64,000 nucleotides of DNA from Sipunculus nudus (lineage: Eukaryota; Annelida; Sipuncula; Golfingiida; Sipunculidae). Where the stretch lies: contig CM049314.1 of assembly GCA_026874595.1 (NCBI GenBank), positions 39,415,229 to 39,479,228 on the forward strand. Reading direction: 5' to 3'. Both the position numbers and the translations under genes were made by a program. The notes under the pieces are model-generated. The model was not told where the DNA came from. It saw nothing but the letters and a program-made list of their open reading frames with translations, and did no database searches. Position 1 is the first letter of the stretch. Every line of letters begins with the position of its first letter. Shown one piece after another: positions 6,401 through 54,500 of this stretch.

Positions 6401-9400
6401 CACGAACTATTTTTAACGGGAGTAACTGCGATGCTGGAGAACGGCACGAACTATTTAGCAAAGGGCAATTTGGCTATATGAAGCGTTTTAATAGTCCGAA
6501 TTAAATATAATCAGAATTATCTCTCTGTGTGCTTACTTAATAGCTGTTATTATACTAGTCTTATAATAAGTTTAATAAGTCTTAAAACACTTAATGGACT
6601 TATTTTCTCCCATTTATCTTCATTTGTTAAACCAATCAACAGTGATAATTAAGTGTTTTATGGCGCTAGTTAAAGCTTAGAGACCCTCCTTTATCGACAG
6701 TCGCCGAACACAAAACGCTTGTACCCTTGATCGTATGTGATGATATGTAGCACAATATGAAAACTACCAAAAAAGTTGATTCATTAATATTGTACTCACT
6801 CGCACTAACAATTGCGTAAACCCAATGTATTCTGCGAAAGTTTTAGAACTTCTCTTTAAAGATAAAAGTCTTTTAAAATAATTGTCTAACGAATTTCAGC
6901 GAAATTTTCCGATCTGCTCATTCTCAATGGAGTTTATTTCATTCCATGTTTTATAAGAAAGCAAAACATGTATATTTAGAAAAATCGGGTAAACATTATC
7001 TGAGTGGCATTTTTTCTGTAATGGGAAAGATTTTGTCAATGATAAGGGAGAAAGTATGGTCTCCTCATCCAGATTTTTACCGCAGTTTTCGATATTACTA
7101 TTTGCCACTCTGACCTTATCGGTAGACACTCGGTCTGGTTGTCGGAGAACACAACATGCCGTCAGCCATCTATATTCTGTATAAACATACGAATATAGGC
7201 TACGAAAATAAAGCACACGATTAATGTGAAATAACTAGGAGAAATTATGTTTTTTCAGGCATAGGCCTATATAAATAAATCGTGCCCCCCCCCCCGAGAC
7301 TTATAGGGGTTGATAAGTTAAATCTGTATTTTTTTTAAAGCTTAAAGGGGGGGGGGGGGTTCTAGTTAGGTCTTCCTACTGCAAAATCGATTTCATTTTT
7401 AGCTCAGCTGACTGTAAGTCATCTGAGCTTTAGCAATCACTCTTTGTCCGTCGTCCGTCCGGTCGTCCGGGCGTCCGCTGGGCACAAATCGTAACCGCTG
7501 AACTTGGAATCTTTTTACTTTATATCCAGAGAGATCCATGAAAGATCTCCTTGGAAACCTGAAATTAGGTCTCTGTTACCCATATTCACCCAGCTATGAG
7601 GCTCCGAAGAACCCCCCCCCCCCCCGAATAATGGAAAATTTCATACAGAAGCTCAAGTATCTGAACAACTAATGCCTTGATCACCATGATTCTTTGCATG
7701 ATTCTTGGTCATGGAGTGTTTCAACAGTTTCTGCAGACTGGTGGCGCCACATGTATTTTTTTCGATTTTTTACAATTTTTTTCTCTATTTTTGAGACCTT
7801 CAAAGATGTGGTCATCTGTTAACAAGGCACAAATCGTAACTACTGGACCAAGAATCTTCTTACTTTACATCTTGTGAGGTCCATGAAAAGTCTCCTAGGA
7901 AACCGGAAATTAAGTCTCTGTTACCCATATTCTTCCAGCTTTGGGGCTCCGAAGTAACCCCCAAAATAATGGCAAATTTCATAGAAAAGCTCAAGTATCG
8001 GAACAACTAATGCCTTGATCATCATGATTCTTAGCATGGATATTGATCATGGAGTGTTTCATCAGTTTTTGTAGACTGGTGGCGCCACATGTATTTTTTT
8101 CGATTTTTTACCTTTTTTTTCTGAGACCTTTAAAGTTGTGGTTATCTGTTAACAGGGCACAATTCGTAACCGCTGGACCAAGAATCTTCTCACTTGACAT
8201 CCAGAGAGGCCCATGAAAAATCTCCTTGGAAACCTGAAATTAGGTCTCTGTTATCTATATTCTCCCAGCTATGGGACTCCAAAGTAGCCCCCAGAATAAT
8301 GGCAAATTTCATAGAAAAGCTCAAGTATCTGAACAGCTCATGCATTGATCACCATGAATTTTGCATGGAAATTTATCATGGAGTGTTTCATCAGTTTCTG
8401 CAGACAGGTGGCGCCACCTGTATTTTTTATGTAATGATTATTTTAGTCTATTTTTGAGACCTTTAAAGATGCGGTCATCTGTTAACAGTGCACAAATCGT
8501 AGCCGCTGGACCAAGTATCTTCTGACTTAACATCCAGAGAGGTCCATGCAAAATTTCTTAGAAACCTAAAATTAGGTCTCTATCACCCAAAACCTCTGAG
8601 CTATGGGGAAATACCCCCAGAGTAATGGAAAAATAGAAACAAAAGCTCAAGAATCTGAACAACTAATGCATTGATCACCATGCATGGATATTGATCAAGG
8701 AGTGTTTCATCAGTATCTACAGACTGCCGGTGCCATCTTGATTTTTATTTTTTTTACGATTTTTTTTGTCTTTTTTTAGACGTTTAAAGATGCGGTCATC
8801 TGTTAACGGGGCCACAAATCATATGTACTGGACCTAGAATCTTTCAACTTGACATCCTTGAAGGTCCATGAAAAGTCTCCAAGGAAATCTGAATAAGGTC
8901 TCTCTTACCCTTACCATTTGAGCCATGGCGCTTTAAAGTGCCCTCAAAACAATCGTTTTAAACAAAAGCAGTGCACAAATCTAGCCATTGGACTTAGAAT
9001 CTTCTGATTTGACATCAAGGGAGGTCCATAATTAGTCTCCTTGCAAACTTGAAATTATAGGTGTCTTTACCTCACATTTTCCAAATATATGCGGCATGTT
9101 TGAGGACCCCAGAAAAAATGCAAAATACACTCAAATTGTGAGTTACACAGGAATGGATGAATGGATTGGCCTAAAATTTGGTGTTCTAATGCGTCTTAAT
9201 AAACTTAAGCTATCTTGCATGAATGATGGTGCCACCTCCAATATCCTAATAAGTTCCCTATGCAAGGATATATTGTCAACATGTCAGTCGGCTGAGCGTC
9301 ATGACCCATGGGTCACTTGTTTTTCTTCTTCTTCTTTCTTTCTTTCGCTAGTTTCTAGATTTCCTATATGGCTGATTATCAAAAGCCGAAACTGCTGCAC

Positions 9401-10816
9401 AAAATTAGCCCTAGGTCACAAGTTTGCACCTGATATTTATTTTCGACCTTGACCCTATTCCCAAGGTAGTACTCACCAGAGGCCATCCCCAATTATGGCT
9501 CAGTTGGGGGGGGGGGGGGGGGGTTGGTGGTCCTGACATCGCTTAGGGATCGCACACATCTAGTCCTTCATCAGATTGGTTTAAAGAAATTTATTTAAAT
9601 GGAATGAATTTGTAACCTCTTCGGCTAATTAATAACTGACCAACTAGATTTGGGGACCTTTTCTCGTCATAGCAGTTTACGACTTCACCTTGCAAAGGTA
9701 GGACTAAGCTAATCAGTCATTCCTAGTGTTTATAACGTCCGGTAATATGGAATAAAAAAGTCATCTTTTTCAGGTCCGCAACTGCCGCTTGGTAGGACTG
9801 AGTGATCTAAAGCTCTCCGACTCATACGTAAGACAAAAAGTATCGGACTACATGAACACGCTCATTGATATGGGTGTGGCAGGGTTCCGTGTGGACGCCG
9901 CCAAACATATGTGGCCGGCAGACCTGCAGGCGGTGTGGGAAAGCCTCCACGATCTGAACACACAGTGGTTTGCCAGCGGCTCTAAAGCGGCCATGTTTCT
10001 GGAGGTCATTGACATGAATCAGCAGGGAGAGGTCAAGGCGCAGGAATACACGCATCTAGGCCGCGTCACCGACTTCCGGTTCTGTACAAAAGTGAAGGAA
10101 GCGACGGGCGGTCTGTGGGGCGTCTTTGGGCTTTATGACCCAGGCTGGGGTATGTGTAGGCTTACTTTCTGTAATCGTATAGGCACTAACATAAGAAAAT
10201 ATGATAGAAATTTGGGTCAAAGCAAAGTTTGTTTCCCCATAAAATTATGAGTGCATTATATATAAAATTCAACATGAAGGCCAAAAATTGTTGTTTTTAG
10301 GCATTTTTTTGTGTGGGTGGGCAGTCATTTTAATTTTTGTTTAAATTTTTCGATAAAAAAATATCATATGACCTGGGCGCAAAATTATCATATTAGAACT
10401 GTATTGCTAAACAAAAGGAAATTATATCGAAATTTTATTATTTCATTTTCTTGAAAGGAAAATCTGAGTGGCTGGATATCACAATCTTTAATTTTTTTTT
10501 ACAAAAACTCTAAATTTTTTTGTTTGCAGGGGTGACTGAGAAAAAAAGTTTTTGGACTAATATAAAATTGTACCCGTATATAGGGCTACCTAATATTATA
10601 AATCTGCAGTTTAAAGCTGTGTTTCCTTTTGCGCGTATATGCGAATATGCGTGAAGAATCGCTCATATGATTTTCTAACTGAGGTGTCTCCATGTGTCCG
10701 TCAGTGTATATGCGTATGTGCGTATATGAATGAAAATCGCCACAGGAGCGATAGGGTCTGCGTGAACCATTGGCGGCGAAACCAAATTTTCATTGGGGGG
10801 GGGGCCCAATAGTAGA

Positions 10817-11117: not shown

Positions 11118-13147
11118 GGAGCCTGTTGGAGCAGATGGGCAGCCCAATAACGGATTTGATACCATGCACTTTCTGGCCCGTCTGCAGATGGGCTTTGCCC
11201 AATAACCGATTTTAGTTTTTATTAGTTTTACGTTATTTTTTATTATCTTGATGACTTTTGTACTCAGACAAACATTTCTCAGAACTTAAATGGATTTGCC
11301 TGCTCTTGGGGTGTACAACACACTTGTTATTCCCTCTAAAGCCAAGCTCAGAGAGGAGGTCAGCAAGTATTTACGGGTAGTCCCTGTTGATAGTCTGTTT
11401 TACGTCGCCAAGAACATCCACGAGAGGGAGGTGGACCATGCAGGATATCGAAAGACCTTTGCCCATGTTAGTGCTTCATTTATCACGTAAGGTGTATCCG
11501 ATATTAAGTTTGTGAACTGGTCATACCTATATGCGTTTACCCTTAAGTGTTGTTATAGTGTTAGTGACAACCAAATTAACTAGAAAGCACTCACAGAGCA
11601 CATGCCACCGCCACCGCCTGTGTACGTACCAATGAAAGTAAACTCCGTTATATGACATGAAATAGTATATGGCCTTTTAGACAAAAAAGGCACCACCCTA
11701 TCAAAATAGTGTGCCATTTAAACCACCGTATTATCATAATTTATTCAATTTACATAATATAGATTAATTTTACATATATGTTTATTGTTCCGAATCCAAA
11801 CAGGGTCTATAAAAAGTTTAGAAAGTTCCTAGTAAGCTGAGCTAATATTTTATTCGATAACAGTATCCCACACAGACCGAAATTAGTAATATGCATGTAT
11901 TAACTACGAATTTTGGTAGTTTTATAGTATAAATTTTATCTCTTCATTATTTATCTTCTGAGTATAAAGTATAATTATATTTATCCAAAATGGTTTATAA
12001 GGAGTCTTGTCACAATTTAAATTTTATATTTATAAATTATATTTTATATATTAAAACATATTTATATATTAAACATCGTGATGACTGCTTGTTTCAGAGA
12101 TCTATTTATTTATCAGTTGTATCTAATAAATTGTTATATATTAAAAATAAAAATAAACTTTACTATGTTACTGTGAAAGATGTGTAAAACATAACCCTAT
12201 CGTTTTGTTTAAATTTATTTTGTGGCGTTTTTGCCCTGGCCTTTGCAAAGACACTACTCTCCGGCAATCACCCCTGCAGCTAAAACTACATTTAACCTCG
12301 GCATCATCTCTGTGATAACCTGACAAAAGGAGTAATGTCCGACTTCCCTGCTGCTCTCATAACCAGGACGCCAACAATTCTGTACGAATATTAAGTAGAG
12401 AGCTTATCAATAAGACACTTCTCCAAAAGAAACTTTATCAAGATGTGTTATTGTGGTGAAAGTGCATGATTGTGATTGACTCTGAGTTCAAATGACTCAT
12501 GAGTTGTCTCGTGTTTGCTACATATATTACACTATTTTATTGTCAAAATGTATGTGGTAACCTTGGTATATATGAGGATATTAAAAATGAATATGAGAAA
12601 CTGATTTGTACCACATATAATTTCTCTTTAGTAAATTGAATGTACCGTGGAAGTCGCATCTATGTGGTAATGTAAATGAGATTTTTTCGCAACAGCTGTA
12701 ATTACTCTTAGGTAAAAAGTGAACCTCATTTTACTCTTAACATCAAACGAATGCAATGTAGACTAATTAAGAATTGTGTGTAAAAAGTTATTTAATAGGG
12801 TATTGTAACACTGCATGCACATCGATGTAGTTTTCTATGCACATCTATATAATTTTGATGATAAAATTATTGATGTAAGGCTGTGATAGTGATTTATGTT
12901 TCAATTAACACATTAAGTTCTGAGAAATGTTTGTCTGAGTACAAAAGTCATCAAGATAATAAAATAATAACGTATTACTAACAAAAACTAAAATCGGTTA
13001 TTGGGCCAAGCCCATCCGCAGATGGGCCAGAAAGTGCATGGTATCAAATCCGTTATTGGGCTGCCCATCTGCAGATGGGCAGCCCAATAATGGCTCCTAA
13101 TATGGGCCAAGCCCATCGGCAGATGGGCCAGATCCGAAAACGGGCTC

Positions 13148-13198
<51 letters not shown>

Positions 13199-16100
13199 TA
13201 CAAATATATCAGGGCCGTAGGCGACCCAAATGGTAGGGGGCAATAAGTGTATTTTAGGGGGAAATCCTCGACGGAGGAGGGTGTGGGAGGGGGTGTCCCC
13301 CTCCCACGGGGTGGAAAAATTGAAAAAACTATGCATACTCCTGCATTTTGGTGCATTTTTCCTGTCATTTAATGGTCAATATTTTCTGTATGGAAACACG
13401 CCGTAAAGCTGTGTTTTCATGTGCGCGTCTATCGCGTATAAATGCGTGTATTCGGGAACTGGTACAATTGATCTAACACGTCTTCTTATAAAAAAATGGG
13501 GAAGTGATGTCATTTTTCTCCGAATCCCTGGGTCCACGCTCCTGTGACAATTTTTTACGAATATACACACATATCCATATACGCCGTTCAGGTAGTTAAG
13601 GTAGTACCCCATATGTGCGTATGCAGTACGTGTGCGTTTAATATGCGTATGCAGCTAGGAATCGCACCCGTTATATTCTCTCAGAGTGATTCCATATATA
13701 TACGCATGCGGATATACGTGTGCGTATACGGTACGCATCGATCGCTCAGAGAAGGGATTGAAAACGCATATGCATGGTAACGGGCGGGGAAATTCCAAAG
13801 TTTGACCTCAGTGATGGGATATTTCCTTGGTAGATGATTTCTGTACTCTTGCAGCTCCATATTATGGCCTTATTTTGCCGCATGCGTACTGCATGCATAC
13901 ACATAGGTATTAATGGAATAACATATACGCACATATGCGCATTTGGAAACGCAGCATAAGAGATCACGACTTGTTTAACCTTATCAAACGGTACTGATTA
14001 AGATATACATTTTTCCAAGTAAGCCTAGCCGTTTATTCATCTAAACTTTTTTATCGGTGAATGCTTATTTTTTAATTCGGTCACATGGACTCTACAGATA
14101 ACTAATCGTTCAATACTGAAAAGACATCCAGATTTCACAAAAATACTATACGTTTTCCATTTGTTAGGGCGATTATATACTGATACTTATAACAATATTT
14201 TGCTCATTTTTTTACTTCTGTGTGGTGCAGGCATGGTCCCGTCAGAGGACGCGTTCGTGTTTGTTGATAACCATGACAACCAGCGTGGTCACGGTGGAGG
14301 CGGTGATCTGATCACGCACAAGAAGCCCCGTGAGTACAGGATCGCCCAGGCCATCACGCTGTCACAGACATACGGCTTCCCTCGCGTCATGAGCAGCTTC
14401 TACTTCGAAAATGGTGATCAAGGTCCACCCAACCACGGGGCGCCGGAGTACAGGACCAAGGACGTCATCAGAAATGCAGGTAGGTAACTATTGGGTTCCC
14501 CAGTCTCAAAAATGCAGCAGCGGATACCGTGGAGGAGCCCAGGTAGTCCGGGACCCCTTTTTCAGCGCTGCAACCTTTTTTAAGGGTTTCAGACAAAATT
14601 TTCGCGGCCTGGACCCCCCTTTGCGGACCTGGGGACCTTTTTCGTTTTTAAAAGTGTTTTATTAGTCCGTCTGGGTTGCCCCCTTCTTTTCCTAAATCCT
14701 GAACACTCCCCTGAAATGACATGGAATTCAAATGTTTAATCAGATGGAGATCAAATGTGCGTGATGGAGATGGCATGCAGTATCTTTACGACTTTTATTG
14801 AAAAGGGCAGAAATGTATACATCAAACATTTATCATAATCAAGAAGTAATTTTCACAGTCGCGTATCCAGGAGGGGTGGGGGGGGGGGGGGGTCAGACAA
14901 ATCTTATGCATGACGGGGGGTTTAGAGACCCCCCCTGTGCTCTTAACCAACGACCTTTTTGAGGCAATTTTTATGCATGACACCCTTTGACCCCTCCCTG
15001 CAACAAATCCTGGATCCGCGCCTGTTTCATAATTGCTTTTGACAAACTTGATAAATCACTGATTGAATTATTCCATGTTTTTTTTAAATAGAATATATGT
15101 ACAATTATCAAGGTATGTCCTTAATTTTAAACCCCCCCACCCCCACCCCCCGGCCCGAAATGGCCATCGTTTTAGATTATCCAGTCCCGTCTGCAGATGT
15201 AGAATGGGTTGGCCATTCCTTGCTGATACTCTTATGCACAAACGGATAAAATGATCCCACATCCCTGCATGGATTCCGATGAACCCTCCGTTTTGTTTTC
15301 TTCTCTAATTTGCGCTGCCCGGTGAAATAATTGATTAAAAACTTCAATATAGCCACCTCGAAGTATCAACTACATTCAAGTTAAACTCGAAAAAAGGACC
15401 AGGTAAGGTATACAGATTAACACAATGATCGACATACACGGATATATATATTTACACTGGAATATCTCTTGAATAAAATGAAACGGTAGTTGTATTAAAT
15501 GTGTTCATGTCAATTCATTTTAGATGGCACTTGTGGTAACGGCTGGGTTTGTGAACACAGGTGGCAGGCTATCGCTGGCATGGCCAGTTTTGCCAAAGCA
15601 ACATCTTCAACAAATAGTATGGACAACCGCTGGAACGAAGGAAACCAGGTCAATATATTTATTACTGTAATAAATTGGGAAAAAAAGCAATGTGCAATAT
15701 CTACCATATCTGCGATATCTACAATGAATGATGTTAAAAAAAGATTAGGATACCAAAAAAATCAGTCTCGCCTTATTAAACACTTTCCTTGAATACTTTC
15801 AATTTTCCAGCTTCATGAAAGAGCAAAGTTTTTTATTTGATTCCAACGTAATATCAGTAAAGAACAATAAAAAAATAGTATAAATAAGACAACGTAAAGC
15901 GGCACAGTACAAACCGCTGTCTCAACCATATTTTAAGTTGGTTAAAATTTCTAATACAGATATAACCAAAATTTTACATTTGAATTATTTCGGAATATTT
16001 GTTTTATTGTTTAGAGAATATAGATGACCTGTTGATGTGATAGATGTTTCATTTCCATCGACTTGAAAGACAGGTTCATTGCCTTCTCGTATAATGATCT

Positions 16101-25730: not shown

Positions 25731-28170
25731 TATCGTTGGAAAAATCGGGGGATTAAAGACATTGAAATTCAAAAATATGTTGAAATCAATTGTCAGTTCA
25801 TGAATTACATGTAATAATACGGTAGTATAATCGCATGATTAAAGCTTCCAACGTTTTCTCACCAACGTGCAAACGATATGAAAACTTTGATAAAAAGATG
25901 CCTCCCCTATATAGAGAGAGAGTTTTAAATATGCAATTTAAAGAGGAATATTTTGGGGCATTATTCACATAAGAAATTTGAAGATTTTCTGCTCCACAAC
26001 TATTATTCCGTTGAATGTCTTTGGATAATATGGTTAAACTTAATTGGGGCTTAGCTTTAATATTTATATTTTAACAAGTCAAAGCTAAGGATATAAACTG
26101 CACCGTCTATACATTCAATTGTATGTTCCACGTTGATTCATGTGTTTCCAAGTTAACCACTCACAACATATCAACAAATTTATTTTCGTGGTAAAATAAT
26201 TGGTGGAAGTCTATGTTTAACTTTGCAAATTTAATGTCTTCTTCAGTCTAGGCAGAGCACATGTAAGAGTAACAGCCGACACCAACCCAGATTTGGCGCC
26301 CTGCAGACTAATGGGAAGGCTGTGCCTCACACAGACATGAGTGCAATTTGGGGATCTATACCCTGGTGTTATGACCATGCACAATGTAATTAAGGAAAGA
26401 CCCCTTTCCTGAATATACAAATATTTAGATGTTATTTTAAAGGTGTAAATCACACATACGTCAATCAATAATTTAATTGCTGGAGAATTAAAATGAAATC
26501 TGAAAAAAATCACGAATGGGAAAATAATCAAATAACATGAAAGGTGTTAGGGCTCAAAGGGTGCTGGGGATGAGGGGCAGTTTTCATTTGCATCCACTGG
26601 ACCCGCAGGTGCAGTAGTCATTTGGGCCAAGTGAACGCCAGGATATAAAATGAGAGGAAGCGTGTGATACTGCCCTATAACGTAGTCCGAAACCGGAACA
26701 GAAATCTGCAGATGTACATATATGTAGTTAAGTTTTCATTAAAAATGGAGGCGGGTACCTCCACCCAAAAGGCTGTAAAAAAATCCATCCGTGGTGTTGG
26801 CCTTTATGCACGGATCTACTTGTTCCTACTTATCCAACAAGTGTACCGTAGAGACATTTGTATTTCCGTAATGTGCAAACTTTACTTTAGGAATAATGCG
26901 TACTCATATGCCATTTTACATATGCAGATGTGCCCTCTTTTCTGCTGATCAAATATGGCTGATTAACTTGTTGTGTGCATTATTTGTCTCTTTTTAGCTT
27001 TTAGAAGTATCTGATCTATAATTTGTAACAATAAGACATGTTTCGGTTCATATTCAGATAAACTTTACAGAAATATATATATCCAGACAACGGTTTCAAC
27101 CGATCCCCATGTTCTACAAGGTACTTAGAACAGTTTAATATGACATGAATATTTCTGTATCAAGACCACCAACGAGGCTTTTGGAATCTTCAAATCTTCC
27201 ATATAACCACACAACTTGATTCTAAATGTTTGTTTTGTTGTAATATGGTAGGCACCTAGACCATGTTGAACTGCCATGAGAGAACCAGCAATATAAAAAA
27301 GAGATCACGAGGATCACCTTCATGTGGTCTATTTCCTTTTGATCACCATATCATATAACATATGGCAGTGTAATGCCCAAAATATGTTTATCCTTAAGAT
27401 GTTAGTACATAGATTTGACTTTGATCTTGCGTACCCTCTGTCAGCTTCCGACAACTCTTGGTTAGTTGCAACTAACAGAACACATTTAAAAAAGTATAAA
27501 TCGATCCGATTATTTAGTATCATTGAGTTTTATCATTACCTCTGTATTTAGATTGCCAATGCGGCCCTTTTGGATTCCCTAGGGTCACAGAGCTCATAAA
27601 AGCATTTTTTTAGTTGCAATCGACAGAACACATCCAAAGACGTATAACTTGATCAATTATCATTAAGTTTAAGCGAAAATTACAGTATAATAGCATTATC
27701 TCTACGTTAAAACTGCAGTGGTAGCCATCTTGGATTCCTTGGGGTCACAGGTTCATCAAAAATATAACCTGCATTCATTCATCAGTTTAAGTGCAAATAA
27801 AACAGGAAATTATGTCATGGTGACCTATATTTTGCGAGCTACAAATGCATCATTTCCTGTATCCGTAAAATGTATATGTACAAAGGCATGATAAGTGCAC
27901 TCTATAGGTCAGATTAGCAAAATTTGTTACAGTTGGAACGAGAGATTACTTACTTACCATCTAGGGATTCCCTGGTAAAACCTCCTTGGAAACCCTATAT
28001 TAGGTCGCTGTTACCTATTCTCTAATGACTATGGACATAAAGCATGAGTTTGAGCACTCTGGAAGTCATTCAACCCATTGTTCAATCTTCTTTAACAAAT
28101 CTTTCACCAGATACTAGATCATATCATTGATAATTAACACTAAATCTCTTGTATGTCACATATATATATT
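25731..28170. other. Intergenic AT-rich DNA with degenerate tandem repeats
   Basis: No gene recognised. 27466-27770 holds two diverged units of about 140-150 bp (tagttgcaa...cagaacacat...ttggattcc). 27965-28010 (ctccttggaaaccctatatt) matches a fragment of the 330-bp unit of element 1. These look like remains of tandem-cored elements. Confidence 0.6.
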
Positions 28171-28201
<31 letters not shown>

Positions 28202-28347
28202 ACAACGAATAAAGGTTGTTAGCCATGAATTTGCCTGTAACTTTTCTTGAGAAAATCGGAAAAACAGCGATTGTCGGAGCGGTAGATGAGAGCCCGGGGG
28301 CATAACACGGAGAGTAGCGCCGCGCGATAGGGGGGGGGGGGGGAGGG

Positions 28348-28569
28348 GGACGGAGATAATCGTTTCTCTCGAATCAGAAACATAAAGAACTCCATGGGTT
28401 CTTGTGCAGACGGATGTATGCAATTAACGCCGCGGCCCCTTGCCAATTCTAGGAGAAAAAGCGGGCGAGAGTCGTAGGCATGGTTAAGAGACCCTCTACG
28501 TGGAGCGGCGATGACGTGAGCCGCCTCTCGCGAAAAGCCTGCCTGGTACAAGTCTTCGATGATAACAGA
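28348..28569 (-). pseudogene. Tyrosine recombinase N-terminal (core-binding) fragment
   Basis: AGFSREAAHVIAAPRRGS, HAYDSR, then HPSAQEPMEFFMFLIREKRL match the SAM-like core-binding domain of DIRS/Ngaro recombinases. The catalytic domain is absent. Confidence 0.65.
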
Positions 28570-29049
28570 CAAGCGTGCAGACGGGCGAAGTTCTGCCAGC
28601 GCGGGAACCGATCCTGACGGAGGCCATTCGGCCAAATCGGTAGATTCCCTTGCCAGGCTTTCAGAAGGACAAGAAGGAGAGGCCACTACAGTGCTCCCCT
28701 TGGAATCCTGACTATCAGTATTAATCGCATTATTAAGAACGTTCGGAACTAAACTCGCAGGTGGAAATGCATACAGGTATTGGCAATCCCACTGCAGATC
28801 GAATGCATTCCTCCAAAACGCTCTGAGCGACGGGGCCATGGACATGAAATGAGCGAGTTGGTGATTGACGGCAGAAGCAAACAGACTGATCGTCGGATGA
28901 CCCCAGATCGAGCATTACTCCTGAGCTTACCGCAGATAAAGCTGCCACTCCGCCGGAATCGGACTGGAGCTTCGCGGAAGAGCGTCCGCGATCGTATTCC
29001 GAGCGCCCGCGATATGCCAAGCCTGAGAGATCTCCACAGTCGAAGCACT

Positions 29050-29276
29050 CGTAGTGACTCCCTTAAGAGCGATCGAGAGCGGGTGTCTTTCATATGTTTG
29101 ATATACGTGACCGCCGTCGTGTTGTCACAATGAATCAAGACCAGTCGACCCTGGAGGTCCTGCCATGGGATAGAAAAAATCGCTCTGGTCTCTAGTACGT
29201 TGATGTGAAGCAATGATGATGTCCCCACAATGAGCACCCTAACGCTTAGTGACGAGTCCATGTAGATCTCTACTGG
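29050..29276 (-). pseudogene. RNase H region of the DIRS-order element
   Basis: MDSSLS, INVLETRAIF and IHCDNTTAVTYIKHMKDTRS place the catalytic Asp, Glu and Asp at the usual spacing of YR-retrotransposon RNase H. The open frame (28749-29483) continues past the domain into apparently frameshifted sequence. Confidence 0.7.
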
Positions 29277-29798
29277 ACTGACATAGACAAAAGAGATACC
29301 CTGTGTCAGAAAACTTGGTACTTTCCATGGGATTTGCACTCTCCACAAGTCTCTGCGAGGAATGTAAACCTTTCGGTCCAGTTTCCACCTGTGAAGATGA
29401 AATCGGCGGGAGAGTTGTTGCACTGGGGGCATTTCCATCCTCCCGAAGGGGATGAAGATGACTGCCCTGTTCAGATTGCCCATAATCTATGCCACATTCC
29501 GCATGGAAACGTTATGTTTGCATGTGGTGTGGGACACTAGTCTCGTGATCTTGTCCACTGTGGAGCCAGGAATGGCAGCATAGCCCCATGGGATCGGACA
29601 GTACGAAGAACTTGGTCTCTCTGCTGAAGTAGAACGGACCGGCTCAGGTGATTGACGATCAAATCGTCTAGTTATGGTATCCCCGAAATCCCCTCGGATC
29701 GTAGGTGAAGAGCCATCAAATCGACAAGCTGTGAAAAAGGTAAAGGAGCCAGGTTCAGGCTGAGGGGTAGTGCCTAGAACTGGAATACGCGGTCCCGG

Positions 29799-30302
29799 TA
29801 GCCGAAACTCAGGAATGGTTGAGACGCTGGGTGGATAGGAACGTAAAAAAAAGTCTTTTAAATCGAAAGCGAAGGCCCGGTCTCCCTTTTTCACCGTACG
29901 AGGTACCAAGTTGACATTGTGCAAACTGAAACGTGCGGCTACTACGCAGCAGTTTAAGGCCTTTAGCCGCCATTGGCTATTGTATTTCTTTGTGGGGAAG
30001 AAATGCAAAAGGAATTGGTTCCAAGTGATGTTTTGCAACCCCTAAAGATATATAAACGACACAGGGCCCCTACTGGACGGGAGTCTGAGCGTATAGCAAG
30101 TTTTTTGTGCATAACCGAGATTTCTTGCGCTTGTGTCGCCCGTCTCTCCGGGTCCGTAGGGGCAGGAATAATGAGAGGCTCCGTCGTGTGCAGCGAACTT
30201 AATGAAAAGGCTGTGAAAAATAGTGTGCGAACGAAGTTGGTTACAAGTGATGTTTTGATAAAAAATATATAAACGGAACCGGGCCCCTACTGGACTGGCG
30301 TC
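29799..30302 (-). pseudogene. DIRS-type reverse transcriptase region, broken and partly duplicated
   Basis: The conserved entry block SPVGARFRLY...ITCNQL is read at 30302-30183, then occurs again at about 30083-30010 in a second diverged copy. The motif-A equivalent GDRAFAFDLKDFF with the catalytic Asp is at 29933-29799. A YxDD box was not found in frame. Confidence 0.65.
30010..30302. repeat. Tandem duplication (~223-bp period) inside the retroelement
   Basis: caagtgatgttttg, followed by atatataaacg and gggcccctactgga, occurs at 30020-30076 and again at 30243-30295. Confidence 0.75.
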
Positions 30303-31300
30303 GGTTTTGGGAATTTGGGTGCGTCTCAAGACCCCGCCAGCTGAAATGTGAACAACTGGTAACGCCTGAACGAAACTAAGGTTGGCGGCCTCGGGAGGAC
30401 GGTCTCGGTGCGCATGAGTTGTCCCCATCCAGAGCGGGAGGATCCAAACGGGAGGGGTAACTTGAACTGCTTTAGCTTCCCATTTGGCCCTGTTCATGGA
30501 CCGGCTGTACACCTATTTATGGTGGCCACGAAAAGGGTACTGCCGGTAAATGGTAGCGAGTACAACTCCTGGACCTCGGACGCATGGAGTCTCGAGATGG
30601 ATGCTTGGATGCTCAAGCTGGTGGATAGTTGGCCGACCGGCCAAAGTTTTGGGGAACTAGGTCTCTGCCCCTCACCGTTGAGATCTCCCCCAGCACAACC
30701 TTCCTATGAAATTCTAGGAAATCTTTCCAAAAAGCCTTCCTTAATTGCATGCAGGCCGAACCGGCGGGATGGAAGCCCCGAAAGAAAGGGAAAACCAATC
30801 TTGAGATCAGTGTGTCTAGGATGTATCGGACAGACGCTGGCAGACAAGAGGTTCGGTGGCGTTGGTCGGGTCATCCCTGTAGCATTTGCGGCCTGATCAA
30901 AAAGGGTGGCCTTGCACTGGGCCCAGACCGACTTATCTTTGTGGATCTTAGTCCACTGCCTCCTCCTCATCTTCGGGAATTCCAAAGATTTCCTCCGGAT
31001 GTCCTTCCTCCCGTGATGACTAGTGGCGATCGGAGATGCTCTTAGCTCTTGTGCTCGCTGAAAGCATCCGTGCGGTTGTCTCTGCTTCCGGGGCCAAGTG
31101 GTCGTTAAGATCATTACTGGGTCCTCTGTCACCGGTTGTGACATCACAGGTGTAGCCTGGAAGGGCGACAAGGCCGGCGACAGAGTCTGCATGATCAGTA
31201 TAACTGGTTCCTAGACGGGGTTTATTTCACTAACCATAGCCATGGGTACAGGGAGCTAAAAGAAGCTTATCTGTATCTTTGGAGTCAGGGGCCCGCTCAG

Positions 31301-31732: not shown

Positions 31733-33836
31733 CAAGGGACCCATGGGTCACGTCGCTCAGCTGTATTTCGGAAAATATTAGTAACTGCAACATTTTTTTA
31801 TTTCTTATGGTTTTTCATTTATATTACCATTTGGAAAGCTTAGAGAAAATGGCCCAGCTAAAATGAAACTCTGTAAATTATAGAATAATGGACATGAGCT
31901 AAAGCATATGAACTGTGTAATGAATGAAACCTTTGGCCTGAAACCATTTAGTAATGCACCAAGGGAAATAATGGGCCTACGGTAAGTGTCATATAAAAGT
32001 TCCATTTCTTAAACAAATAATGTGTGAAGGTAATTAAGTTTTCAAAAGTTAAATATATGGCCATATGAGTTAAAAATTAATCCCACAAAGTTTGACCAAT
32101 ATTCCTTATTTTAAAACTAAGTTAAAGTGTTATTCACACCTAGGCCCAGCTAACTTTAAGAGATATGAATGAAATGCTACCAAGTATTTATATCTTCTTA
32201 AATCTTGTCAGTTAGCACTTACATTAGGTCCTTATATTATATCACATTTGAATATTAGGATTAAATAATTGAACTTTTTTTTCTTTTAAAAAATCAAAAT
32301 TGTCCGTCTCAACAAAAAGAATTTATTTAACATTAAAAATTATAAGATTCGTCTTGTTTATTAGTCCTGTATATGGAAGGGGTGGGTGGGGGAGGAATTT
32401 CTATTGTTACTGCCCTACACTGAAAAAAAATTATAAGATTCATCTTGTTTATAATACAGGTCTGTCACCAGAATGGAGGGGGGGGGGGGGGGGAGAAAGG
32501 CTCCCTGTGGTATTAACTGCAGGCAGCCTGATCAAGCTCAACAAGAGAGAGAGGGCTTGCCCGAGTGATGGGATTACATAACAACCGCCTGGGGCGCATA
32601 GAGAGCTGCACTGAATGACCTACAGTGACCAATGTAGACTGCTTGACAATGCAAGGGAATACAACAAGAGCCTAAAAAAATTCAATAATTAGCCTTATTC
32701 TGCAGCTTTTATTTCCAAATTTCAGATTTTAACAGATTTAATCCTTATGTGTACATGCTGTGAAAATTTAATCCACAGTACTTACAAAAACGTGCCATGG
32801 CCAAAGTTGGGCAAAATTTAAGGTACTGATTTTATATTTATGCTAATAACTTTAAAAAAAAATTGCAAATTTCAGATCTAATTTTCGGTATACAATTGAA
32901 TCTTGATTAAATGAAGTTTTATCCCTGAAAAAAAGTCTCTAGCATCAGCAATTCTTATGTTAAGTGAGTAAATATATTTCCTGATTTTTTACAAGGTGCA
33001 TTATGTTTGGGCCTATAACTTCAACAACTTATGCAATACTGACCTAAATTTTGGTGTGTACATGGGAAATGTATGGAAAAATATGAATATTTACTTTGAC
33101 ATCTAACATTATGCCAATTTTTGGATTACCAGGCAGAGCTGTAGTAAACAAAAGTGGGGTCATTATGCTAGAAAATACAAATACATTAAGGCCTCTGAAA
33201 ATCTTCAATAGCTAGTCTATTTTTTAAGCTTATACTTTCAAATTTCAAAATTCATCAGATTTAATCCATATGTAAACTGGCTGTGAAAATTATATCAAAT
33301 GTACTTACAAGAAAAAACGTGCCATGGTCAAAGTTGGGCAAAATTTAAGGGACCATTTTTTTTATTTTTGCTAATTTTTTTTAAATTTAAAAGATTTTGA
33401 TCTAATTTTGGGTAAACAATTTAATTTTGATTATTTAAAGTTATATTACAGGAAAAAAGTCCTTAGCTTAAACAAGTTTTGTATTAAGTGATCAAATATC
33501 TTTCCTGATTTTTTACAAAATGCATTTTGTTTGAGCCCATAACTTTTAAAAATTGTATAATACAGTCCTAATTTCTGTCATTTACATAGGAACTATATAG
33601 AACAATATTTATGGTAAATATGAGGAAAAACAGATGAGTGGTTTTGAAATTAGGCAGTCCTGAAGTGTGAAAATAGGTTTTTAATAAACAAATTTTCCTT
33701 AATTTTTTCAAAGGAATGAAGTCGCAAAGACCCAGTTTTCAGCTTGGTAGGAGATCTTGGGGACATCTAACATTATGCCGATTTTGGATTTCTAGGTCTT
33801 ACGGTTTTACGGACTTATAGTCAGCTGAGCTAAAAA
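31733..33836 (+). mobile_element. Tandem-repeat-cored element 2 (pearl/HINE-like)
   Basis: The left end caagggacccatgggtcacg continues into tcgctcagctgtatttc. The right end is cttatagtcagctgagctaa. These match elements 1 (inverted) and 3. The core has two units of about 500 bp: cgtgccatggccaaagttgg near 32790 and cgtgccatggtcaaagttgg near 33319, each followed by cctgattttttacaa and later cataactt. This core is unrelated to those of elements 1 and 3. No coding frame is seen. Confidence 0.65.
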
Positions 33837-36182: not shown

Positions 36183-36538
36183 ATGTGTTTAGGGGATGTA
36201 TACCTTAACTGAAGAGATGTATACCTGTATTTGTGGAATTTATACCTGTGTTTAGGGGATGTTTACTTGTCTTTATGTGAAATATACCTGTGTTTATGAA
36301 ATGTGTACCTGTGTTTATGGGATGTATACCAGTGTATATGGGATGTATACCTGTGTTTATGGGATGTTTACCTGTGTTTAGGGGATGTATACCTGTGTTT
36401 AGGGGATGTATACCTGTGTTAAGGAGAGGTATACCTGTGTTTATGGGATGGATACCTGTGTTTAGGGGATGTATACCTGTGTTAAGGGGATGTATACCTG
36501 TGTTTATGGGATGTATACCTGTGTTTATGGTATGCTTT
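36183..36538. repeat. 21-bp minisatellite, about 17 units
   Basis: The unit is close to gggatgtatacctgtgtttat. In one frame it reads CIPVFMG repeated, giving a 116-codon open frame at 36290-36640. The regular frame follows from a unit length divisible by three, so I do not call a gene. Confidence 0.9.
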
Positions 36539-47935: not shown

Positions 47936-48095
47936 ACTAGGGACCCACGGGTCTCGACGCTCAGCTGTATTTGTCTATAAGGATATATGTTTATGAGGTT
48001 TTCAAAAATATTGGTCCTGTGATCAGTTTGAAGCCAACCTGTCTACCCAAACTGGAGTTATCATCCATAAACTAATTTGTGAATGGATGGGCCCT

Positions 48096-49850
48096 GTGAC
48101 CTTAACCTTTGACCTAGTGACCCCAAAATCAAAAGGAAACTTCCCCTATTGGCAGATGCACCACATGTCAATGATGGAAGAATTAAGATGAAAAGTTTGG
48201 CTCAAAATGCATCCACAATCTTTCTAAAGTAGTTGGTCCTGTGACCTTGACCTTTGGTCTCATGACCCCAGAATCAACAGTTCTTACTTTAGTTGTGGGC
48301 TGTATATAAGTCAAGTTTGAAACCAATATTTCGAACCAAACTGGTGTTATCATCTGGAAACTAATATTTGAACAGATGGCCTCCATGACCTTGACCTTTG
48401 ACCTTGTGACCCCAAATCTATAAGTTACTTCCACTATTGGCAGGTGAGCAACATCTGGAAGATGGAAGGTTTGGGACAGAAAGTTTGGATAAAAATACAT
48501 CAACAATCTTTTTAAAGAAGTGGGTCCTGTGCCCTTGACCTTTGACCTAATGACCCAAAAATCAAAAGGGTTCTTACATTATTGGTGGGTCATATGTAAG
48601 TGAAAATTGAAACCAATATGTCAATCCAAACTGGATTTATCATCCAGAAACAAATATGTGGACAGATGGGCCCCTGTGACCATGACCTTTGATTTTGTGA
48701 TCCCCAAATCAATCAGGTTCTTCCCCTATTGGCAGCTCAGCTAAATGTGCAAGATGGAAAGTTTGGGATGAAAAGTTTGGCTTAAAATGCATCCACAATC
48801 TTTCTAAATAACTGGGTACTGTGACCTTGACCTTTGGTCTCATGACCCCAGAATCAACAGTTCTTACTTTAGTTGTAGGCTGTATATAAGTCAAGTTTGA
48901 AACCAATATTTGAACCAAACTGGTGTTATCATCTGGAAACTAATATATGGACAGATGGCCTCCATGACCTTGACCTTTGACCTTGTGACCCCAAAATCTA
49001 TAAGTTACTTCCACTATTGGCAGGTGAGCAACACCTTGAAGATGGAAGGTTTGGGACAGAAAGTTTGGATAAAAATACATCAACAATCTTTTTAAAGAAG
49101 TGGGTCCTGTGCCCTTGACCTTTGACCTAATGACCCAAAAATCAAAAGGGTTCTTACATTATTGGTGGGTCATATGTAAGTGAAAATTGAAACCAATATG
49201 TCAATCCAAACTGGATTTATCATCCAGAAACAAATATGTGGACAGATGGGCCCCTGTGACCATGACCTTTGATTTTGTGACCCCAAAATCAATCAGGTTC
49301 TTCCCCTATTGGCAGCTCAGCTATATGTGCAAGATGGAAGGTTTGGGATGAAAAGTTTGGCTTAAAATGCATCCACAATCTTTCTAAATAATTGGGTACT
49401 GTGACCTTGACCTTTCACCTCATGACCCCAAAACTGAACAGAATCTTTCCCTATTGGCAGATAAGAAACATCTTGAAGATGTAAGGTTTGCGATGAAAAG
49501 TTTTGCTTCAAATGCATATGCATTCTTTTTAAAGAAATGAGTCCTGTGACCTTGACCTTTGGACCTCAAAATGGACACTTTTCTTACTTAAGTAGGGTGA
49601 ATGATATAAAAGTTAAGTTTGAAACCAATATGTCAAACTAAACTGGAGTTATCATCTGGAAACTAATTCATGAACAGATGGCCCCTGTGACCTTGACCTT
49701 TGACCTTGTGACCCCAAATTCATTTATGCTCTCCCCATACTGGCAAGTCAGCTAAATGCGCAAGATTGAAAGTTTGAGATGAAAAGCTTGGCTTAAAATG
49801 CAGCCATCTTTTTAAATAAGTGAGTCCTGTGACTTTGACCTTGTGACCCA
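48096..49850 (+). repeat. 145-bp tandem array with nuclear-receptor-like sites
   Basis: The word gtgaccttgacctttgacct or a close variant starts at 48096, 48241, 48385, 48530, 48676, 48821, 48964, 49109, 49256, 49401, 49546, 49687 and 49829: steps of 141-147, mostly 143-147. Units fall into a four-unit higher-order repeat of about 580 bp (48241-48820 and 48821-49400 are nearly the same). On the - strand the word contains AGGTCAAAGGTCA (DR1) followed by TCAAGGTCA. Confidence 0.9.
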
Positions 49851-49965
49851 AAATCATATATGTTCTTGCTTTAGTGGAGGGCCATGTGTAAGTTAAGTTT
49901 GAAATCCATATGTCAATCCAACCTCGAGTTATCATCTGGAAGCAAATTTGTGTGGATGGACGGAT

Positions 49966-49966
49966 G

Positions 49967-50010
<44 letters not shown>
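49966..50010. repeat. (GACA)n microsatellite
   Basis: About eleven GACA units with one A-for-G change. Confidence 0.95.
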
Positions 50011-50011
<1 letters not shown>

Positions 50012-50994
50012 GGTAATTACTAGGGGACATCCACTTGTGATCGTTCACACCAGGTTTTGGGACACTAGATGTAATCACAGCTGAGAAACTGACATGATTG
50101 TTGTCATTTTATATTAAAAAAAATAAAAAATATTTGTTAAAATATAAAAAAATACAGGTGGCGCCACCACTTTTCGGGAACTGACAAAACTAGTCATGGT
50201 CAATATTCAAGGCAAGATTCATGACAATCCATGCATTAATTATCAAATCAAGATATTGGAGGTTTTGTATCAAATTTTTTACTATTCTGGGGGGTACTTT
50301 CAAGCCCCATAGCTTGAAGAATATAGATCGCAGTGACCTTATTTCAGGTTTCCAAGGAGATTTTTTATTGACCTCCCTGGATGTTCACTTACAAGTTTCT
50401 AAGGCCAGCAGTTACTATTTGTGCCCTGCTAACGGACAGCCGGACGGTCAAAGAGCCATTCCTATACCTCAGTTGACTTACAGTCAGCTGAGCTAAAAAT
50501 GTCAAAAGGATATAATGTTTGTTCATACCTCTGGTCAACAGTGCTCATTCTCTAAAGAAGGTGAATTAATTATTTTCATGATTGTTTTCCCCTTGCAACC
50601 CGGTGAAACATAAGTTCTAATTTAAAAGAAAATGGCTTCATCTCATTGTGGATATAATTGGCATGGAATGAGATTTTTCATACAGACATTTTTCTGATAT
50701 TTTTTTTTCATTGTATGCATTTTTGGATACATTATCGATTCAAATTTAAGTTACCAGTTTTCAATTTTTGATACATGACCTCTCACTCTCAGAAAAACAA
50801 TCACTCAATAATTACAGGAAATTGATTAAATTAAGACGTGTCGGACATATGCCTGTTTATCTTATAACAGCTTGTGAAAGAGTAACTTAATAAGGTTCTG
50901 GTTAATTACCTCTTTGTAGCTGGCAGCCCTTCTGTCCTTTCAAATTTACATATTAATGAAGATAGACAGTCCAAGATGAACAAAACGGAGCCAT

Positions 50995-51508: not shown

Positions 51509-54500
51509 GTAAGACAAGCTTCATAGCAGTTGACAGCTGGACAGTCCGTGTTGTTGACAGTAATCACTCACATACTATTTTGGGTGGTGAGTCACCCGCA
51601 GCCCCTGAACGGAACCCAATCTTATTTTGATTCTGTAACTGGTTACGTTTTACTCTTTTTTTATACAACTTCAGGGGTATGCTGTTATAAGTTTCTTTTT
51701 GATAGGATAGATTAGATATTTTTATTTCAGGTAAAAAAACCATATAAAAAGGAATACAATAAAAAGATGAGGTACGAATATAGAATACCTCAGGCACCTG
51801 AACCGGCCAACATAACTGGCCCACCCTGTCTATTGCAAGAGATGTATGTATTTAGTAACACATACCGTCACTAATAACTGTCTATTTGTCCATTCCTTCT
51901 AAGTTTTCTATCATTTGTATCCTGTATTCCTCCCCCTCCATCTTTCCTAAACCAATGTTGCCATAGGCTTCCCCTACTTTCTCCATTACGTCATCAGGAA
52001 TCACGGCAGAACTATAGAAACCGGGCTTCAGCCTACCTTCTCCATTACGTCATCAGGAATCACGGCAGAACTATAGAAACCGGGCTTCAGCCTACCACCG
52101 GTAAAACGGGTGTCACATAATAAATAGTTCCCTGGAAAAGGAAGATACATATCATTTTCCTCAGAATTCCCGTATTTATTTTTTTGCTCATAGCTGGAGT
52201 TTATTATATTAGAGGAGGAGGGGTCCGGGGAACCTGGGTTCCCCGTCTGAATGGGGGTGTGGGGGCGGAGCCCCCACCTAAAATTTAATTTTCCTGTTAA
52301 AAATAGTAAATGGTTTCCCATTTTCGCGATAGATGCCTCTTCAGTCGCAGATATAAATGAACAAAACTTGCTCCTGCTGGTAACTCGTCTTCACGGCTCA
52401 CTTAGTAGCGTGTAGGGCTCCTAGTCCAGAGATCATAGGTTCGATTCCCGATTCAGGCAACTTCTGATGCTTAGTAGTTGTTTATGTTAGAAGAGTTGAG
52501 TGTAGGGACATCTACAGGAAAAAGTAGGAGTTAAAATAGGGAATGACAGGTGACAATTTTATTTATATGTTCCTCAATACAATCGAAGCCCGCATCCTAT
52601 AGTGGCTCAGGAATCACCATCTCACACAATCTCATCCATTCACTATCTCGCTACACTTCACTTCGTTCATGTGCCATTTCTCTACAATCTTTTCCTACTG
52701 ATTCATTGATCTATCATTCATCTATTCCTCCCACAAGTGGGGGTTTGGGGCGTCTCCCCCCAATTATTCCTTATTATTTATCATTCATTCTTATCATTCT
52801 ACCTATTGGGGAGGGGGGTGGGGGGTCTCCCCCCATCATTATTCCACTTTATTTATCAATCATTATTATTATTCTACCTATTACAGGGTGGTTTGGGTGG
52901 TCTCCCCCCATCATTATTCCACATTATTTATCATTCATTATTATCATTCTACCTATAAAAGGGGGGGTTTGGGGTGTCTCCCCCCATCATTATTCCACAT
53001 TATTTTTCATTCATTATTATCAGTCTACCTATTACAGGGGAGTTGGGGGGTCTACCCCCATCATTATTTCACATTATTTATCATTCATCATTTTACATCA
53101 TTGTTACCATTTTCACTTTCATATCTATTTAGTACCTCGTCTTACTAGGCCTACTACACATTTCCATGTCAAGCATATGAATTGACGATTTGGTCTAGGG
53201 ACGATTTCGCCCACTATAAATGACGTCATCACAACTGGGGTTCCCCCAGCACTTTGACAACGAGACCAACTCATGTGAGCATGCTCATTCACGCATAAAC
53301 ATCTTTTGTCTAAACTTAAATACCCCCATTTTCCAAAAACATTCAACAAGTCTTCTTAGCTCAGTGGTAGAGCTCAGGACTTCTCTGCAGACGGTTGCTG
53401 GTTCGAGTCTTGCTCATGGATATGTTCATTGAATGTCATGTATAATAATCACATATATATCTCTGTCTCTTCCAGATCAAACAGTACCGGACGTCAGATA
53501 GGTACAAGACATACCAAACAGTCAGATACTCAGATGTTACAAGTCACATCACAACTCTTCTATTATTTAAAATGAGCCCCAAAAAGACTATACCCCATTT
53601 TTCCTCTCTATCCCCATCAAATGTATTGCCCTCTTTAGGACATTCTGATAACCTGGGTGCCTGAGGTATTCTATATTCGCTCTAAAGATGAATTAACATT
53701 AAGAACCATACCTTCCTGTATGCAAACCATCACCCCTGGTTTGGTGTGTACAAGTTTGCCAGGTAGACCACAGGACGCCAGACTTGATAGTATTGTTATC
53801 ATATAATCACTTAATAATTATGTTTGAGCTATTTTCCAGTCTACAAATAAATCATAATTTTGATAATGATCGGTCCCCCTAAACACCCAAAACACCGGTG
53901 ATTTGGGTATCTGTGAGGAAACACCATGAAACACCCACATAACTTCAAACCTGAACCAAAAACGTAACACCAATCGATACATATGCATCTGATGAATATA
54001 TCTCTGCAATATGATTTCACTAATTCATGGGTGTGACTATTTACCGTCCGAAACCGTCCGGGACTCCCTGAATACCGTCCGGGACATAGCTATACCACCC
54101 GGGTCACTAAGACACTGTCCCAGACACCAGAATATAAGCTTAAAAGTATTACTTAAATGCATACAGACCTCCCGGGACCGACCGGGCCTCCAGTTTACCA
54201 TCCGGGTAAACAGACCTGGCTGTTGGGCACAAATGCACAATAACGAAATACACTACATTGCAAAACACTCAAAGATCATGTGATAATATTCCACAGCTAG
54301 TGATTATTATATTTTAATATGAATATATCAGTTAATGCCATGTTAATGATTATATTATTATTATTGATATTATTAATCTATTAATATTATTATTATTGTT
54401 GTTGTTAATCAATCTGAATATAATTCTTCTGCCCAGAATACCGTACGGGGCAACAAAAAGCAGCCCCAAACAGGCCTGAGATCAACCATGCGCAATAGCC

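Follow-up and report, generated by a model that had tools for sequence, protein, structure and literature searches.

Three probable Helentron-type elements with common ends and partly related cores within 64 kb

Three elements with the same ends and mostly different cores lie within the 64-kb stretch of DNA analyzed here, which is referred to below as the window. Such an arrangement raises two questions, namely what class of mobile element the ends belong to and where the sequence between them comes from. The three elements, E1, E2, and E3, are very probably non-autonomous Helentron-type elements (HINEs) of a single family, for which a Rep/helicase encoded elsewhere in the genome would act in trans. 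Their parts and coordinates are listed in Table 1.

The 18-base sequence AGTCAGCTGAGCTAAAAA is present in the window in three exact copies, at 7396-7413 on the minus strand and at 33819-33836 and 50482-50499 on the plus strand. A fourth match, at 11831, contains three mismatches, and the shuffle expectation is 0.06 at up to three mismatches. The palindrome GACCCATGGGTC is found exactly at 9303 and 31738 and with one mismatch at 47942, where the shuffle expectation is 0.05 at up to one mismatch. The two ends are paired in the same relative orientation in all three elements; their sequence, order, and orientation are direct observations. The identity at the 5' end covers 18 bp in E1, E2, and E3 together and 26 bp when E1 is compared with E3. 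The shared ends proposed in the initial annotation are real: one is identical over 18 bp, the other is palindromic, and both stand far above shuffles. The short inverted match GCTCAGCTG/CAGCTGAGC that had been noted between the ends was recovered as well, exactly in E2 and E3 and with one mismatch in E1.

When up to five mismatches were allowed, the window contained 28 matches resembling the 5' end, a mild excess over the 15, 21, and 18 found in three base-shuffled controls. These 28 take in the three true ends, the inverted repeats adjoining two of them, and sites within the E3 core. Using the 3' end, only the three known copies were found in the window at up to eight mismatches (shuffled controls 1, 1, and 1). 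The presence of a fourth complete element was rejected for the window, since at this threshold there is no further 3' end and hence no further pair. Viral contigs searched with both ends and with a generic 5' pattern gave 0 matches, and prokaryote genome contigs searched with the 5' end also gave 0. Because these collections hold viruses and prokaryotes, this is the expected outcome and is uninformative for an animal element. Among the papers listed by a literature search with the sequences of the ends and cores, none concerned transposable elements, as judged by title and the start of the abstract.

Table 1. Features of the three elements, with strands given in the corrected orientation, in which the TTTTTAGCTCAGCTGAC side is 5'
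Feature	Position	Strand	Remarks
E1, HINE-like element	7396..9319	+	1924 bp; 5' end at 7396
E1 5' end: TTTTT, subTIR GCTCAGCTGAC, complementary IR	7396..7429	+	predicted DNA hairpin, -9.9 kcal/mol
E1 GTCC-like microsatellite	7446..7477	+	clear; sequence reading
E1 core	7482..9135	+	~330-bp unit, 4 full and 2 partial copies
E1 3' end: 3' subTIR, palindrome GACCCATGGGTC, CTTG	9289..9319	+	subTIR 12/13 versus 5' subTIR
E2, HINE-like element	31733..33836	-	2104 bp; 5' end at 33836
E2 5' end	33812..33836	-	first 18 bp as in E1 and E3; complementary IR and microsatellite absent
E2 core repeat	32658..33796	-	~1.8 diverged copies (75%, offset 524), starting ~40 bp from 5' end
E2 3' end: subTIR, palindrome GACCCATGGGTC, CTTG	31733..31763	-	palindrome exact
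E3, HINE-like element	47937..50499	-	2563 bp; 5' end at 50499
E3 5' end: TTTTT, subTIR, complementary IR, then decayed GTCC-like stretch	50465..50499	-	predicted hairpin, -8.3 kcal/mol
E3 single copy of the E1 330-bp unit	50117..50436	-	between 5' module and array; 67-77% to full E1 units
E3 second, internal microsatellite	49967..50011	-	GACA on + strand
E3 core: ~145-bp monomers, types A and B	48030..49951	-	mostly alternating
E3 3' end: subTIR CAGCTGAGC, palindrome with one mismatch (GACCCGTGGGTC), CTAG	47937..47967	-	

The TTTTTAGCTCAGCTGAC side is the 5' end of the elements and GACCCATGGGTC is the 3' palindrome, which reverses the left and right orientation first assigned. The TTTTTAGCTCAGCTGAC end consists of a subterminal inverted repeat (subTIR), followed by a complementary inverted repeat (IR) and then by a GTCC-like microsatellite. 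Read from the 5' side, the complete order is TTTTT, subTIR GCTCAGCTGAC, complementary IR, microsatellite, core, 3' subTIR, palindrome, and CTTG or CTAG. Of the 13 subTIR positions, 12 agree between the 5' and 3' copies in E1 and 10 in both E2 and E3. In predicted folds, made without a shuffled control, the subTIR and IR form a hairpin in E1 and E3, and the 5' end of E2 reaches only -1.9 kcal/mol because its inverted repeat is missing. A palindrome follows the 3' subTIR in all three elements, with one mismatch in E3. The 3' palindromes alone are predicted to be weak hairpins, of -1.8 to -3.2 kcal/mol.

At all three insertion sites, the right flank starts with TT, and inspection by eye reveals no target duplication in the flanks of E1, E2, or E3. 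The bases that precede TTTTT are A, G, and A, which leaves a TT target without a visible left half unless it includes some of the Ts. In Culex Helentrons, the 2 to 5 Ts found at the boundary are counted as belonging to the element and vary in number (PMC4067079).

The order of parts published for HINEs is present in full in E1 and in a more eroded form in E3, and to this extent the anatomy bears out the initial assignment to HINEs; E2, which is without the IR and the microsatellite, counts against it. Also against it are the subTIRs of E2 and E3, with only 10 of 13 matching positions, the weak 3' hairpins, with a mismatch in E3, and the bases preceding TTTTT. Elements are placed in one family when their subTIRs are identical over 11 bp or more (PMC4067079). 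With 18 identical bp at their 5' ends, E1, E2, and E3 form one family by this rule. Subfamilies are delimited at 80% over the last 60 bp (PMC4067079). Over the last ~60 bp, the three pairs agree at 41/64, 36/60, and 42/61 aligned columns, which makes E1, E2, and E3 three subfamilies by the 80% rule.

Two other classes of mobile element were considered for these ends. A canonical Helitron would have a 5' TC, a hairpin ~11 bp before a 3' CTRR, and an insertion site between A and T. In favor of this, E3 terminates in CTAG past its palindrome, but CTRR is present in E3 only, and E1 and E2 end in CTTG, so that the end sequences contradict a canonical Helitron in two of three elements. Moreover, the 5' end is TTTTTAGC in all three rather than TC, and the combination of subTIRs at both ends with a 5' IR is the plan of Helentrons and HINEs (PMC4067079). 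We consider a canonical Helitron very improbable and rejected it on its 5' TC and CTRR requirements. A DNA-transposon MITE or foldback element, which carries terminal inverted repeats and is flanked by a target duplication, would account for the short inverted match between the ends, and pearl elements were initially termed MITEs (PMC7492417). However, this match is limited to a short subterminal stretch, and the ends are otherwise unlike one another. With no long TIR and no visible target duplication, this explanation was rejected too and is likewise very improbable.

The core of E1 is built from a ~330-bp unit, the copies of which are 73-84% identical over aligned pieces. The repeated unit begins ~85 bp from the 5' end. 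A stretch of 385 bases in E3, at 50117-50501, is collinear with the 5' end and the first 330-bp unit of E1 (404 columns, 72.3%, 1.1e-58). The cores had been described as completely different, which fails for E1 and E3, as one 330-bp unit is common to both. The common unit is observed directly, as is the structure of the arrays. In a separate part of the window, a partial E1-type unit without ends is situated at ~27917-28034 (102 columns, 73.5%), and a second piece, of 42 bp, occupies 27800-27841. No 3' element end was detected near 27800-28034.

The remainder of the E3 core is a different satellite, with no similarity detected between the 145-bp array and the E1 unit. The 145-bp array of the initial annotation does exist, but it really contains two monomer types, A and B, which are ~50% alike and largely alternate. 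Among 12 monomers, strict alternation is broken once, where two A monomers lie side by side. A portion of the array, 836 columns in the alignment, also repeats at an offset of 581 and is 92% identical.

The E2 core showed no detectable similarity to the cores of E1 and E3. Its repeat pair aligns over 433 columns with 75% identity at an offset of 524, and there is an additional 36-column piece at an offset of 663. The repeat is followed by ~890 bp with little repeat structure, in which a 27-bp direct repeat is the sole repeat found. Of the ~500-bp tandem units first described for E2, there remains one diverged pair, amounting to only ~1.8 copies ahead of a barely repetitive stretch. The description of three unrelated tandem cores is overstated, since one unit is common to E1 and E3 and the E2 core is barely tandem; what stands is that E2 has no detected similarity to the other two. 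In the same way, the proposal of an end module that transports any tandem array enclosed by it is upheld in part only, given the unit shared by E1 and E3 and the scarcely tandem core of E2.

How the cores came to lie between the ends can be approached from their position. The initial annotation favored wholesale capture, in which the end module takes up ready-made satellite arrays from elsewhere without any amplification in place. The dissimilarity of the E2 core to E1 and E3, and that of the E3 145-bp array to the E1 unit, would be explained by such capture, which has also been discussed, as "filler DNA", for oyster HINEs (PMC7492417). Against it, the 5' module of E3 is continued collinearly by a single E1-type unit, and the repeats of E1 and E2 begin beside the 5' end, which suggests duplication in place, at least for E1. 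Wholesale capture of this kind is doubtful, although not negligible. Duplication in place is favored as one source of the cores, because the units of E1 and E2 start near the 5' end and E3 keeps a single E1 unit there. This single unit could alternatively be a contracted array.

For the Helentron-type elements as a whole, we infer a rolling-circle mechanism, a trans-acting enzyme, and a route by which the cores change. The conserved ends would represent the requirement of the enzyme, with the sequence between the ends free to change. Transfer would start at the hairpin of the 5' subTIR and IR and would stop at the 3' subTIR and palindrome. Tandem cores may arise and lengthen between the ends through duplication of internal sequence. 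They may also be gained by recombination or capture, which is a probable origin of the A/B satellite of E3, an unrelated second array that follows the E1-type unit on its downstream side.

The coding content of the elements, which we read as non-coding, was analyzed with Pfam. At the curated cut-off, there was no match in the 138-aa ORF that is the only one of at least 110 aa overlapping E1 (it extends beyond the E1 end), or in the 130-aa ORF that is the only one of at least 110 aa in E3. The scan gave four matches below the cut-off, to Vanin_C, DUF6170, MGDG_synth, and Cas3_HD (E 0.034-0.094), and those to DUF6170 (0.076) and MGDG_synth (0.094) fall in the E3 130-aa ORF. No Pfam match to a Rep or helicase was found in the 18 scanned ORFs out of the 28 of at least 110 aa in the window. 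The other 10, mostly antisense or simple-repeat frames, lay outside the scan, together with the shorter ORFs of E1 and E3 and the six ORFs of at least 55 aa that overlap E2. The possibility that the core is a structured RNA or a tRNA was rejected, as over the whole window Rfam gave 0 matches at the gathering threshold and ARAGORN (bacterial setting) gave 0 tRNAs.

The window contains several further features. An exon-like ORF at 9756-10250 on the plus strand resembles animal α-amylase (Protein Data Bank code 1ppi, 8e-37, the best among solved structures; Pfam PF00128, 6.6e-05), and this match is the ground for taking the host to be an animal. The ORF at 14029-14487 on the plus strand has, by eye, the appearance of a further amylase exon, without a Pfam match at 0.01. 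Adjacent ORFs at 28219-30512 on the minus strand, ~1.2 kb from E2, resemble the remains of a DIRS-like retroelement; the four that were scanned gave no Pfam match at 0.01. At 53350-53410 on the plus strand, the sequence resembles a tRNA A-box and B-box (TTAGCTCAGTGGTAGAGC...GGTTCGAGTC) and may be the head of a tRNA-derived SINE; ARAGORN calls no tRNA there. Other tandem arrays include those at 36184-36534 (21-bp unit, 16.7 copies) and 52735-53092 (75-bp unit, 4.8 copies), and no HINE 3' end is present near either at up to eight mismatches.

The A and B monomers of the E3 array have one block in common. Their consensus sequences are 58% identical overall, and the block AGG(T/C)CAAAGGTCAAGGTCACAG agrees at 19 of 20 columns (12 monomers). 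Both monomers also close with an identical stretch, TTGATTTTGGGG, which lies a few bases ahead of the next block (12 monomers). When conservation was calculated over 13 of the 15 monomer matches, leaving out the two shortest, the AGG(T/C)CAAAGGTCAAGGTCACAG block was the best conserved 18-column window, at 0.87 versus a mean of 0.72 for all columns. AGGTCA occurs in the E3 core 26 times on one strand and 0 times on the other, with a mean of 1.25 and a maximum of 6 in 300 shuffles. There are also seven copies of TCAAGGTCA (shuffle mean 0.06) and five of AGGTCAAAGGTCA (shuffle mean 0.003), and within the window both are confined to the E3 core. Because the repeats of one array are not independent, these counts indicate a conserved block and not selection.

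Directly repeated AGGTCA resembles nuclear-receptor half-sites, of the DR1 and extended types, with AGGTCAAAGGTCAAGGTCACAGG presumably made up of a DR1 site plus TCAAGGTCA. It is conceivable, if improbable, that the E3 core spreads nuclear-receptor-like sites in clusters that are ready-made and all point one way, and that the block, centered on AGGTCAAAGGTCAAGGTCACAGG, is maintained through binding of a host nuclear receptor or of the transposition machinery. If true, the element would carry regulatory modules around the genome. The 18-base core block matched 14 stretches in viral contigs, once each, presumably by chance. By title, none of the literature found on Helitrons, nuclear receptors, and response elements dealt with mollusc Helitron cores. 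The BIV160/Cg170 family is described as having two conserved motifs (PMC5139131), and the oyster clusters of the Cg170 group as having two conserved segments (PMC7492417).

The closest published counterparts, compared here by description, are the Cg_HINE elements of Crassostrea gigas. Their plan is that of E1 and, in eroded form, of E3, with subTIR, IR, and microsatellite, then a tandem core, then subTIR and palindrome (PMC7492417). Within Cg_HINE group 2, related flanks enclose unrelated tandem repeats; two Cg_HINE elements carry two arrays in tandem succession, and several have GTCC-type microsatellites (PMC7492417). Cg_HINE elements prefer T-rich sites, without target duplication, and the oyster subTIRs are usually 11-12 bp with 0 or 1 mismatch (PMC7492417). 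The core units differ in length, being ~330, ~525, and 2 x 145 bp here as against oyster cluster averages of 140-180 bp (PMC7492417). Eight elements of the same oyster genome, Helitron-N3, -N4, -N28, -N29, -N31, -N32, -N35, and -N40_Cgi, have end boxes 4 and 5 in common (PMC8268682). This is one conserved pair of ends across several elements, which by description is what is seen in E1, E2, and E3. Another oyster pair shares a 156-bp segment, box 3, located between the microsatellite and the core (PMC8268682), which is comparable to the E1-type unit in E3. Published accounts of the oyster treat double-array elements, and single monomers flanked by end boxes, along lines comparable to the duplication and capture considered here (PMC7492417, PMC8268682).

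Further counterparts are found in arthropods and other bivalves. DINE-1 of Drosophila and the HINEs of mites possess subTIRs, a 5' IR (in DINE-1), a 3' stem-loop, and a microsatellite, as is the case in E1; central repeats occur in some, and insertion is at TT or T-rich sites (PMC4067079). They differ in their hosts and in the autonomous partners that are described for them (PMC4067079). The pearl elements (CvA, CvE, and CvG), DTC84, and MgE are bivalve elements with short tandem cores, and pearl has been re-categorized as a non-autonomous Helentron (PMC7492417, PMC11136912, PMC5139131). In CvA, the repeats show a relationship to BIV160/Cg170, a family with two conserved motifs; compared by description, pearl differs in having ~160-bp repeats (PMC7492417, PMC11136912, PMC5139131).

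Related ends with unrelated cores, as well as double arrays, have thus been published for Crassostrea gigas, and E1, E2, and E3 are therefore a further example of a described kind and not a new system. The principle is already known, and the window offers a compact case of it, with one end module and several cores within 64 kb. In E3, a second satellite is stacked onto the unit that forms the array of E1. The elements bear on the origin of rolling-circle tandem cores, by duplication in place versus capture, and on the seeding of satellites.
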